NCBI GenBank assembly: GCA_026986435.1
Contig: JALSOP010000041.1
Location: 1 to 53,402 of the forward strand
Reading direction: 5' to 3'
Origin: Desulfurococcales archaeon
GTDB taxonomy: Archaea > Thermoproteota > Thermoprotei_A > Sulfolobales > NBVN01
DNA: 53,402 nt
Both the position numbers and the translations under genes were made by a program. Shown piece by piece: positions 31,713 to 36,247 of the stretch. Within the stretch, counting starts at the first letter, position 1. Each line of letters opens with the position of its first letter. The notes beneath the pieces were generated by a model. It had not been told where the DNA came from. It did no database searches and saw only the letters and a program-made list of their open reading frames with translations.

Positions 31713-32489
31713 TTGAAAACACATATCCCAGTGGTGCGGTTGTTGAGTAAACACATACATAACATCCGCTTGTGGGCGACGGGATGTAAAGGTACATATG
31801 TGATCATAAGGGGCAGCCGTATCGTCGCAAAAACCGCGAGCACCCTCCCTCTTAGAGGAGACTACGTGATTGGAGCTTCCTCAACGAGGTCAGTTAGGGG
31901 TCTTGAGGGCACATTAGTCCTCCGGGTATCGGTCAGGTCGCCCGAGGGGGTTATCTGGGAGGGCGAGCAGTGCATTATCGGTAAGGAAGCGTGTCCCCTC
32001 AGCAGGTACACCAAGGCATTGTCCCTGAGTCCCGGGGAGTATGTGCTGGACGTGGACCTGGCGGATACGCCACCCAGCCTTGAGGCGGAGGTATGCATCA
32101 GCCCCGTACCCGTGGAGGGAGGTTTGCTCGTTTCCGGGGCTAGACCGGGTAGGCGCACTAGAATGAGGCCAGCACAGGGTTCAACGAGATCGTGGTCGCT
32201 TATGGTCGGTGAACCGGTTAGGGCAATGGACGCCTGTATTCAGAGGTACTGGCTCTGGTTCTTCGAGCCCCTGACACCTCGGAACAAGGCACTCGTTATC
32301 AGGTTGGAGATAGGTGAGGGCCTAGTGGACTCTATTCACACGGAGCTCCTCCGGGTGGGTGTCTACTCGGAGGTGGTTGTTGATGTACTGACCCCACCTG
32401 GGGGCGGTAATGTTGTGTTCCTCGACCCGGCTAACTTAACACACCCGTTGTTCACCATGCATACGGAGGGGTGCGGTGGTGTTAGCTGA
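31713..32489 (+). CDS. Orphan protein, two beta-rich segments with Cys motifs
   Basis: 258 aa; no known family recognised; GKEACPL and TPRNKALVIRLEIGEGL segments; N-terminus uncertain. Confidence 0.55.
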   Translation: MKTHIPVVRLLSKHIHNIRLWATGCKGTYVIIRGSRIVAKTASTLPLRGDYVIGASSTRSVRGLEGTLVLRVSVRSPEGVIWEGEQCIIGKEACPLSRYTKALSLSPGEYVLDVDLADTPPSLEAEVCISPVPVEGGLLVSGARPGRRTRMRPAQGSTRSWSLMVGEPVRAMDACIQRYWLWFFEPLTPRNKALVIRLEIGEGLVDSIHTELLRVGVYSEVVVDVLTPPGGGNVVFLDPANLTHPLFTMHTEGCGGVS

Positions 32490-33009
32490 GCCCGTCTACA
32501 TTGACCCGTCGGGGGCGAAGGTCAAGGAGAAGCTCCTGGTTTGGTACCCTGTCTCGCTGGTGAGGTTCGGGTGCAGGGATGACTTCCACCTCGTTGACTG
32601 CGTCCTGCCGAGGATCAGCGGGGTGCACTACCACTGGCTAGTCCTCATTGTAAGGGCCGGGGACGACGTAGTCACGAGGTCCGCTCCCCCGGTAGAGGCG
32701 CTCACGCTCAAACACCCCGGGTGCTCCCCCCAGGACCTGAGGATGGCTGTGGAGGCTGATGAGGCGAAGGCAAGAGAGGCCAAGAAGCTCAGCTGGGCGT
32801 ACTACTTCAAGGAGATAAAGGAGATGCTCTGCCTGGACGAGGAACCGATAACGTGGACACCTGCCTACGCACTGACCGAGATTAGGAGGAGGGACGCCAG
32901 ATTCCACTTCCTGGTTTCCGGGAAAAGGATAAGGTCGCTCAACCACCAGAGGCTCATCAGGTTGCTAGGTGTCGACGACTTCCTCTCCCTCGCCGGGGCG
33001 AAGGGTTGA
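32476..33009 (+). CDS. Orphan protein, translationally coupled to upstream orphan
   Basis: 177 aa; GTG start overlaps the upstream ORF end; no recognised family. Confidence 0.6.
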   Translation: MVLAEPVYIDPSGAKVKEKLLVWYPVSLVRFGCRDDFHLVDCVLPRISGVHYHWLVLIVRAGDDVVTRSAPPVEALTLKHPGCSPQDLRMAVEADEAKAREAKKLSWAYYFKEIKEMLCLDEEPITWTPAYALTEIRRRDARFHFLVSGKRIRSLNHQRLIRLLGVDDFLSLAGAKG

Positions 33010-33014
33010 GGTCC

Positions 33015-34859
33015 TTACTCGCCAGCGATTATCCTACCCACATCGACGTGCCCCAGCAGCGGCGGCGGGGTCCTCATGAATGCGTAGCCCGACCTAACAG
33101 CAGGGGTCTTAAGCATGGCTACCCTGTCAGGGGCTAGCTCAAGGACACCCAGGATCTCCCTCGGCACACCGAGGTCCTCTAGGTACTCCCTATCGCTCCT
33201 CAGTATGACCTTAGTGTTAGTGAGCTGGATCACCACTCTGTGCACGTCCCTCGGCGTGTGGGTAGAGAAGATAAGGCCCAGGCCCCTCGCCCTCCCGAGC
33301 CTCGATATCCTGGCTATGAAGTCCGCAAGAACCTCAACCTCCTCCTCAGAGGTGCCCTCGGCGGGGAAGAACCTGTGGGCCTCATCAAGCACGACTATGG
33401 CCGGCCTGGCACCCTCCCTCGCCGACTTCTTCCAGGCGAATAAGCGCCTCAGATACTCGTACGCTATTATGTTGGTTATGAGGTAATGGGCACCCCTGAC
33501 AGCCGCGTAGTCGAGGTCAAGGATCACGGGACCCCTGTAGTTCCTGGCGAGGTCTCTGGCGTAGGGCATCCCTATGAAGCTGTCCCCGACCCTCACATCG
33601 ACCTCCTCGGCGGACGCTATGAAGTTCAAGGCCCTCTCGATGTTCTCGAGAGTCCTTCTATGGATCTTCAGCGTCTTGATAATTCTCTCACTCATCTCCC
33701 TCAAGAGGGCGTAGAGATGGGTGAACGAGACGACCCCGCCTGACTCATGCTCTATGAAGCCGATAACGTTGTCGAGGTAGACCTTCGCCTGCCTAGAGAA
33801 GATCGGGAATATCGAGAGGTTAGGCCTCAGTTGCTGGTACGTAAGCCCTATAGGCAGGAACTCGACAATAGACTCCGAGGCGTCCGGGAACATGATCCTA
33901 AGGATTATCGACCTAGCGCTCCCGAAGTCCCTCCCGGCATCGACGTCGACCTCGACCCTGGGCTCCTCGCCGAACACGAGCTTCGCGGGGGCGGCGACCC
34001 TCTCCATAACATACTCGACGGCGAGCCTATCGAGGCCCTCATCACCTCTCCTAATTGGGACAAGGGCCGTTACCCACCTGGGGGCGGCGTCGGGAGAATA
34101 AACTGCTGCTTCCTCACCTCTAGCAGCGGGTATGACTATCTGCGTGTAGTCGCCCGCTGCGTCAAGAACGGAAACCACAACCTCCGGCCACTCGGTCGAT
34201 AGGGCGTAGAGGAGGTTCTTAATGAGGGTCGTCTTACCCGAGCCTGTCGTGCCTATGATAAGCATGTGCTTGAAGAACTCTCTTCTCGGCAAAGCGACCT
34301 TCACCCTACCCCCGGCGACCGGGTGCGAGCCTGTGTGAAGGTACCCCAGCGTTACACCCTCCTCCGGGAGGCCGAGGACCCTCTCCACCACTCCCGGATC
34401 TGAGGGGATCACGACAGGGGACTGAGGCTCGATTGGTGAGAGGAATGGCTCCCCGTCAGCCGTTAGTATGGTCACGGCCTCTATGACGGCGTTCGTGAGG
34501 AGGGCCTGGGGCTCGGGCTCGAGCGTGGGCGGGGGAGCGGCGCCGAGCTCTGAGGCAGCGTCCTCTCTCCTCATAGACACTACCCTCAGCCCGACAGGTT
34601 TGAGGGTTCGGGCATCAACGGCTATCAAGACGTCGCCAACCCCTATCGAGGAAGCTGTGCTGTAGTATTTGCTTGGTGGGACATCCACTAATACCTTGGA
34701 GTAGCCCTCGCTGACCGAGGAAGGTGCTCTCCTCGACACCACACCGACTAACTCGCCTATACCCTCAGCTATTTTCCTAGCCTTCTCTAACCTTGCCACC
34801 AGATCATCTATCAGGTCAAACAACCTCGCCACCCCCGTAAATAAGGGCCGCTCCGGCAA
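33015..34859 (-). CDS. herA: HerA-family hexameric ATPase/helicase
   Basis: IIGTTGSGKTTLIKNLL, IVVLDEAHRFFPAEG, STHTPRDVHRVVIQLTNTKVILRS; start may be downstream of 34859. Confidence 0.92.
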   Translation of the reverse strand: MPERPLFTGVARLFDLIDDLVARLEKARKIAEGIGELVGVVSRRAPSSVSEGYSKVLVDVPPSKYYSTASSIGVGDVLIAVDARTLKPVGLRVVSMRREDAASELGAAPPPTLEPEPQALLTNAVIEAVTILTADGEPFLSPIEPQSPVVIPSDPGVVERVLGLPEEGVTLGYLHTGSHPVAGGRVKVALPRREFFKHMLIIGTTGSGKTTLIKNLLYALSTEWPEVVVSVLDAAGDYTQIVIPAARGEEAAVYSPDAAPRWVTALVPIRRGDEGLDRLAVEYVMERVAAPAKLVFGEEPRVEVDVDAGRDFGSARSIILRIMFPDASESIVEFLPIGLTYQQLRPNLSIFPIFSRQAKVYLDNVIGFIEHESGGVVSFTHLYALLREMSERIIKTLKIHRRTLENIERALNFIASAEEVDVRVGDSFIGMPYARDLARNYRGPVILDLDYAAVRGAHYLITNIIAYEYLRRLFAWKKSAREGARPAIVVLDEAHRFFPAEGTSEEEVEVLADFIARISRLGRARGLGLIFSTHTPRDVHRVVIQLTNTKVILRSDREYLEDLGVPREILGVLELAPDRVAMLKTPAVRSGYAFMRTPPPLLGHVDVGRIIAGE

Positions 34860-35826
34860 CCCTCAAGGCGGCCTCAGCCTGCCTAGCGAGGTACCTGGCT
34901 ATGACCTTACTCACGTAGTCAGCGCTGTGGATGGGTGCAGGCACGGGTACCCCGCTGGCTAGGGCTGACCTGGCCATGAAGGCCGATACTTCTTCGGGGC
35001 TGAGTGGAGAGCACTCCGGAACCTCGACCCTGAATACCGAGTAACCCCGGTAGGGAGCGTGCCTGACGGCTACGTACGTTATGACGTATCTGATCCCTGC
35101 CCTTAGCGCCTCGGCCTCTCCCAGGAGCAGTGCCGGCCCGCTGGCCTCCCGAAGAGCGAGGGCCAGGATGTCGTGGTCGGCCAGGGCGTGGCCCAGGAGG
35201 CTAACACCCCACACTCTCTTGACCACGAACGCCACAGCGACCCCTTCCGAGCAGGCCCTCTTGACAAGGCCGGCTCTCTCAGCATATAGGGCCCTTACTT
35301 CCTCGGCCCACCTCACGTCCTCTATGCTCGGAGTATGCGATGGCGGACCATCAACAGCTATCAACCAGCCCTCTCCAGCTCTCTCGGCCGCTCTCCGCAG
35401 GGCCTCATTTTCCAGCCCTATCCTGACGTCAGAGGTCGGGACACCCATGACGAGGTCGGGGTCGTCCGCGAACCTGCTCCCGAGCTTGAGGTATCTCGTA
35501 GTCACGCCCGGCCTGTCCTCACCGGCTGTTGCGGCTACGAAGGGCGGCCCCCCTGTTGGGGGTGTGTGAGTGTGTGGGTAAGTTATGGATATCTCTGGGC
35601 CCACGACAGCGTAGGACGCTATGCCGAGCTCTCCCCCTGCCACCATGAGGGTCGCTGAGGCGGCATCAACGCCCATCACGGGAAGCGCCTTGACCCTCCC
35701 GACCTCCCTAACCCTTATCACAGGCTCGGGCTGGGAGTCTGGTTCTAGTGGTGTGCCTGCTCTGGCGGCTATGTTCTCAGCCCTCGACAGAGCCCTCGCT
35801 ACGCTGGCCAGGATGTCCGCGATCAT
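34816..35826 (-). CDS. nurA: NurA-domain nuclease
   Basis: PVMGVDAAS...GIASYAVV, IAVDGPPS, VVKRVWG blocks; directly upstream of and overlapping herA. Confidence 0.85.
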   Translation of the reverse strand: MIADILASVARALSRAENIAARAGTPLEPDSQPEPVIRVREVGRVKALPVMGVDAASATLMVAGGELGIASYAVVGPEISITYPHTHTPPTGGPPFVAATAGEDRPGVTTRYLKLGSRFADDPDLVMGVPTSDVRIGLENEALRRAAERAGEGWLIAVDGPPSHTPSIEDVRWAEEVRALYAERAGLVKRACSEGVAVAFVVKRVWGVSLLGHALADHDILALALREASGPALLLGEAEALRAGIRYVITYVAVRHAPYRGYSVFRVEVPECSPLSPEEVSAFMARSALASGVPVPAPIHSADYVSKVIARYLARQAEAALRVAGAALIYGGGEVV

Positions 35827-35872
35827 ACCAGATAATTCCTCGTGGGGGTAAGTGTTTAAGACCTTTTAAGAA

Positions 35873-36247
35873 TCAGGAGCTAAGACCGATTACCTCCTTC
35901 CTAACCGGGTATGACCTGATGAGGGAGGGGCACTTAATAACGTCCCTCTCGTCGATGACGACCTTACCCACCCCCTCCCCTATAGCTATTCTCACCACGT
36001 AGTACATGCCCCTCGGCGGCGTGCCCTCGAAACCGCAGAGACTTGGTCGGCAATGCTCGTCACCCTTGATGACCCTGTCGATGTAGACTACTACGTCCCC
36101 ATCCAGGTCGCTGAACCTTACCCTGAAGAAGGTACATGGGTCCCTCCGCTTCCTTATTATGAGGAGGTACCTCCTGCCCCCCTCCTCAACGACGTAGTTA
36201 CCGGGAGCGGGTTTAGGGGGCTCATCCACGTACTCACCGACTAGCAA
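35873..36247 (-). CDS. Small Cys-pattern orphan protein, paralogue A
   Basis: 124 aa; C-x27-C-x4-C-x34-C with GDEHCRPSLC; similar to 37266/37278..37637. Confidence 0.65.
   Translation of the reverse strand: MLVGEYVDEPPKPAPGNYVVEEGGRRYLLIIRKRRDPCTFFRVRFSDLDGDVVVYIDRVIKGDEHCRPSLCGFEGTPPRGMYYVVRIAIGEGVGKVVIDERDVIKCPSLIRSYPVRKEVIGLSS

Follow-up and report, generated by a model that had tools for sequence, protein, structure and literature searches.

We found that the window, the whole 53,402-nucleotide stretch of DNA analyzed here, carries a gene pair that is a further member of the known HerA-NurA kind and a divergent second copy; we refer to its products by the labels HerA2 and NurA2, which were coined in this analysis. 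The conserved entity is the two-gene nurA2-herA2 unit, which is separate from the standard DNA-repair copy of the genome. The pair and the genes and elements around it are laid out as follows:

31713..32489, plus strand: orf1, a fast-evolving orphan of 258 amino acids, judged to lie outside the system
32476..33009, plus strand: orf2, 177 amino acids, also judged to lie outside the system
33015..34859, minus strand: herA2, a HerA/FtsK-type ATPase of 614 amino acids
34816..35826, minus strand: nurA2, a divergent NurA nuclease of 336 amino acids with a predicted RNase H-like fold
35862..35870, minus strand: CTTAAAAGG, a TATA-like element that precedes the nurA2 start codon by 36 bp
35873..36247, minus strand: orfA, a genus-restricted orphan of 124 amino acids
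37266..37634, plus strand: orfB, a paralog of orfA, 123 amino acids

The gene positions and arrangement that the initial annotation had given around herA-nurA were confirmed for every open reading frame. The orf1 and orf2 genes overlap by 14 nucleotides and lie on the strand opposite herA2, with a gap of 5 bp between the convergent ends of orf2 and herA2. The nurA2 gene is the upstream member of the pair and overlaps herA2 by 44 nucleotides, and orfA lies 46 bp further upstream on the same strand. The neighbors of the pair are housekeeping genes (pheT, pheS, OsmC, a pterin-binding enzyme, nitrilase, and HMG-CoA reductase). In comparison with the genome of the sister species (G001), nine of nine neighboring genes were under purifying selection, with dN/dS values from 0.03 to 0.25, so we consider the orphans to be real genes. 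The 46-bp spacer before nurA2 is almost unchanged in the sister species, and since CTTAAAAGG within it is plausible as an archaeal TATA element and is a candidate promoter of nurA2-herA2, the two genes may be transcribed as a unit of their own. In two other family genomes (L060 and L061, 1-2000), a pheS-like gene lies immediately next to nurA2-herA2 in divergent orientation, and proximity to pheS may therefore be an older trait of the locus than the orphans.

The window HerA matches the Pfam families DUF87 (7.7e-9) and HerA_C (5.4e-7), both above the Pfam cut-off. Within its Walker A motif (G203-T210), residues G203, T204, T205, G206, G208, K209, and T210 are invariant among 25 sequences, as are D492 and E493 of Walker B. 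We also found that herA2 is the most constrained of the genes compared, with a dN/dS of 0.030 versus 0.051 for herA1 and 0.075 for pheS. The score against the NCBIfam helicase_HerA model is below its cut-off (41.5 bits versus 970), and the best PADLOC match is PDLC01055 (2.7e-46). Anti-phage HerA proteins (NCBIfam HerA_antiphage, NF042943 and NF042944) are alike in having a HerA-type ATPase. However, the window HerA reaches 34.7 bits with NF042943 and 26.2 bits with NF042944, compared to cut-offs of 800 and 850, and, unlike in the anti-phage systems, its partner is a NurA.

The window NurA2 has no Pfam, NCBIfam, or PADLOC match and falls below the Pfam NurA gathering score; its sequence diverges fast between genera, and 19 of 29 relatives match Pfam NurA at E ≤ 1. 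Alignment to the canonical NurA profile with hhalign gave a probability of 98 and an E value of 1.7e-13. Since searching PDB sequences with the NurA2 profile returned nothing even at E ≤ 10, a comparison of folds was needed. When the AlphaFold2 model of NurA2 (pLDDT 87.5) was searched against PDB folds, the first match was Sulfolobus NurA (2ygk, E = 5.6e-8), followed by other NurA structures. In Sulfolobus islandicus NurA, the critical residues are D58, E116, D133, and K202 (PMC4351679). Residues D54, E139, D159, and K203 of NurA2 are invariant or almost so among its relatives and correspond to these catalytic positions, the first three as placed by motifs and K203 as placed by the hhalign alignment to canonical NurA. 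Together, the profile match, the predicted fold, and the four catalytic residues indicate that the nuclease gene and its HerA partner are a real HerA-NurA pair.

A Pfam NurA search of the genome identified two further NurA genes besides that of the window. On contig C122, the gene order is rad50 (906 amino acids, open at the contig start), nurA1 (413 amino acids), and herA1 (547 amino acids), and mre11 (418 amino acids) lies on contig C153. At the end of the C153 stretch, an open reading frame on the opposite strand looks like an antisense version of the start of rad50, so we conclude that one mre11-rad50-nurA1-herA1 set is split across the two contigs. The remaining NurA-like sequence is a fragment of 207 amino acids (G000:C121:2-625, L077) that matches Pfam NurA at 2.3e-6 and is cut by a contig edge. 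The initial annotation had seen no mre11 or rad50 in the window. The pair is indeed unlinked to mre11-rad50, since the sole mre11 match in the genome is the one on C153 and rad50 was seen next to nurA1-herA1 on C122. The genome-wide copy count that it had proposed places the window pair as an additional one, since the canonical set is present on other contigs, and the idea that the window holds the only HerA-NurA pair of the genome is ruled out. Compared to the canonical Mre11-Rad50-HerA-NurA operon (for example, S. islandicus SiRe_0061-0064), the window pair is alike in its HerA-type ATPase with an adjacent NurA, and it has the catalytic residues and the predicted NurA fold in common. It differs in lacking linkage to mre11-rad50, in belonging to a separate HerA clade, and in coexisting with the canonical set.

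Among the 31 genomes of the family, 21 contain one strong match to the window HerA, weaker matches occur across the order, and the adjacent NurA follows this distribution. The 10 genomes with no HerA2 match include four well-assembled members of one genus. In the neighborhoods that were collected first, NurA2 adjoins HerA2 in all but one, where the contig stops. In 61 of 70 distinct loci, both genes lie on one strand with at most 100 bp between them; most of the other nine have a csm6-type gene in between or the two genes in convergent orientation, and in one of the nine herA is split. The HerA2 and NurA2 distance matrices are correlated (r = 0.70, 0 of 2,000 permutations). In the tree, HerA2 forms a clade distinct from canonical HerA1 (SH-aLRT 99 to 100) with family-level subclades, a grouping as expected of an old paralog that would have been inherited mostly vertically. 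Canonical HerA1 has matches in most of the order, and both sets are seen in several genomes. In one genus of the family (L068, L070, L071, and L072), nurA2-herA2 lies about 10 kb or less from the canonical nurA1-herA1, which in L071 and L072 is itself adjoined by mre11. Our literature searches turned up no relevant description of HerA2/NurA2 from Sulfolobales.

Split genes were also observed. The herA2 of G011 (L066, 6371-8226) is in two open reading frames, and in Vulcanisaeta (L115, 4912-7968) both nurA and herA are in two open reading frames each; a frameshift, a sequencing error, or decay could account for either case. The lack of a match in some family members and the split herA2 of L066 are what a decaying duplicate without function would leave behind, but the dN/dS values of 0.030 and 0.088, the near-saturated dS, and the intact catalytic motifs make such a fate extremely improbable for the pair, and we consider it refuted by the strong purifying selection.

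The initial annotation had proposed a HerA-associated system in which the unknown neighbors were candidate effectors or regulators. The pair and its status as an extra copy stand, and the membership of the orphans does not. Among 60 genomes searched, orfA and orfB were found in just the two genomes of their own genus, and the two are paralogs by hhalign (E = 3.3e-6), with cysteines in common. The orfB gene, which was absent from the earlier description of the locus, is fast evolving (60% identity in the sister species, dN/dS 0.25), and orfA and orfB flank the pterin-binding enzyme gene. Weak homologs of orf2 are present in 13 other genomes of the family, on contigs other than that of herA2 where both are known; these 13 include five from one genus in which no HerA2 was detected. 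A homolog in that genus (L178) lies beside a pheS-like gene, and those of another genus (L173 to L175) lie beside ribosomal-protein-like genes and ndk. The orf2 product belongs to an uncharacterized family-wide protein group (the window plus L173 to L178). Its structural model is confident (pLDDT 86.5), but the predicted fold has no PDB or viral-model match at E ≤ 0.001, and an assignment of function by fold was dropped. The orf1 product is 58% identical in the sister species and otherwise has weak matches only, none of them linked to HerA2; a relationship to orfA and orfB, suspected from Cys and Pro patterns, was rejected because the hhalign probability was under 2%.

The one other member of the genus keeps orf1, orf2, orfA, and the pair in the same order, as would be the case if HerA2-NurA2 and these three orphans made up one new system. 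We give this model very little credence, since the linkage is not conserved outside the genus, orf1 and orf2 are on the opposite strand, orf2 homologs are found in genomes in which HerA2 was not detected, and nurA2 has its own conserved TATA-like element. The initial annotation had itself held that mre11-rad50 elsewhere in the genome and orphans without conserved linkage in relatives would speak against its reading, and this is largely what we found; the missing linkage also rules out the orphans as conserved partners of HerA2. Because the unknown neighbors are not consistently part of the locus, we regard the pair as an extra of known kind and not as a new multigene system.

HerA2 relatives are also found in CRISPR loci. 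CRISPR-associated nurA-(csm6)-herA genes of Thermoproteales were published in 2012, together with the finding that Pyrobaculum genomes have at least three nurA-herA pairs each (Bernick et al., PMC3396285), and NurA and HerA are named as putative CRISPR auxiliary genes in a legend (PMC10910872). PADLOC labels both PDLC01055 (HerA) and PDLC01056 (NurA) "Type III coevolved"; the former matches 25 of 25 HerA2 relatives, and the latter matches 20 of 29 NurA2 relatives. Sulfolobus acidocaldarius also has a match to PDLC01056. In L079 (6720-10667), nurA-herA ends a type I-A cassette, following genes with PADLOC matches to Cas7a, Cas5a, Cas3', Cas3'', and Cas8a, and, judged by reading the sequences, L081 (250-4226) and L194 (2031-6513) appear to be arranged alike. 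The pair of Caldivirga L106 follows a Cmr1/Cmr6 protein and precedes a CARF protein, a CARF protein is also encoded downstream of the pair in L108, and in Thermoproteaceae (L183 to L191) csm6-type proteins, identified by eye, are encoded between or beside nurA-herA. The window HerA falls in the same HerA2 superclade as these CRISPR-associated pairs and shares the PDLC01055 match. In contrast, its lineage is stand-alone, the window NurA2 has no PDLC01056 match, and the tree places most CRISPR-linked HerA2 proteins in one clade (support 99) that excludes the window HerA2, with L200 elsewhere.

The window HerA2-NurA2 lineage is not CRISPR-linked, as judged from cas1 and from repeats in the window. 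No array-type direct repeats and no CRISPR repeat were found in the window, and no cas1 was detected in its own genome (93.6% complete) or that of the sister species (99%), a result still compatible with an interference module (cas10 and the like). The genes examined beside the window pair included no csm6, and the repeats and cas1 results led us to reject a CRISPR module in the window. Among 66 good genomes, 24 had both HerA2 and cas1, 12 HerA2 only, 17 cas1 only, and 13 neither (Fisher P = 0.45), in a test that is rough because of the relatedness of the genomes and because every match at E ≤ 1e-20 counted as HerA2; on this basis, we dropped a general tie between HerA2 and CRISPR adaptation.

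These observations bear on whether the pair acts on its own as an anti-invader nuclease, degrading linear or cleaved virus or plasmid DNA, an activity for which its relatives would have been recruited into CRISPR loci. The patchy distribution of HerA2 within the family and the CRISPR-linked cousins make this a real alternative, as do the strongly supported HerA2 subclade in nurA-csm6-herA loci of Thermoproteaceae and at type I-A cassette ends and the PADLOC matches of the relatives. We nevertheless place it on the unlikely side, since the window lineage lies outside the CRISPR subclade and among housekeeping genes with no cas1 detected in its own or the sister genome, HerA2 and cas1 are not associated, and herA2 is highly constrained and tracks family-level relationships. 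A more far-reaching version, in which the stand-alone HerA2-NurA2 would be an uncharacterized, CRISPR-independent innate immune DNA-clearance machine of Sulfolobales-type archaea and ancestral to the CRISPR-linked nurA-herA, is a speculation that we consider unlikely.

The pair could also export DNA for cell-to-cell exchange, as proposed by analogy with transjugation in Thermus, in which the HerA-family ATPase TdtA, with a NurA encoded directly upstream, is required for DNA donation (PMC5365140); we liken the two on gene arrangement. The window genome encodes five DUF87-type ATPases in total, one of them with a CedD-like N-terminal hydrophobic stretch identified by eye. With this CedD-like TM-ATPase and another ATPase of the HerA/VirB4 family, which is the second of its kind, the genome may also provide an import side. 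However, the integrative element in which TdtA resides also encodes a restriction enzyme and an integrase, whereas the window pair has housekeeping genes around it. The neighboring genes examined include no integrase, restriction enzyme, or methylase, and no conserved membrane or pilus gene accompanies the pair. Thus, a role in export seems very unlikely.

On balance, we favor, with some reserve, a model in which the stand-alone nurA2-herA2 operon encodes an accessory machine for DNA end processing or clearing in chromosome maintenance, independent of Mre11-Rad50 and outside CRISPR, with the orphans as mere neighbors. By analogy with known HerA-NurA complexes, HerA2 would most likely assemble into a hexameric ring and, starting at a DNA end, drive double-stranded DNA into a dimer of NurA2. 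This dimer would unwind the DNA and cleave it with a metal-dependent RNase H-like active site. HerA2-NurA2 would do so without Mre11-Rad50 and apart from CRISPR, serving chromosome maintenance. The pair probably has a general role in DNA maintenance, a reading that we prefer because herA2 is strongly constrained, vertically inherited, and set among housekeeping genes. Against it, 10 of the 31 genomes of the family have no match, and core repair genes would not usually be dispensable in this way; the rapid divergence of NurA2 between genera also speaks against it.

In Sulfolobus, DNA end resection requires HerA-NurA (PMC4351679), and S. islandicus cannot do without the canonical pair. Many related archaea keep a second, separately conserved pair that is unlinked to Mre11-Rad50. 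Sulfolobaceae relatives in our data set carry both pairs, which suggests that the second pair is no substitute for the canonical one. Once established, the role of the stand-alone pair, whose relatives have been drawn into CRISPR loci, would link archaeal DNA repair with immunity.
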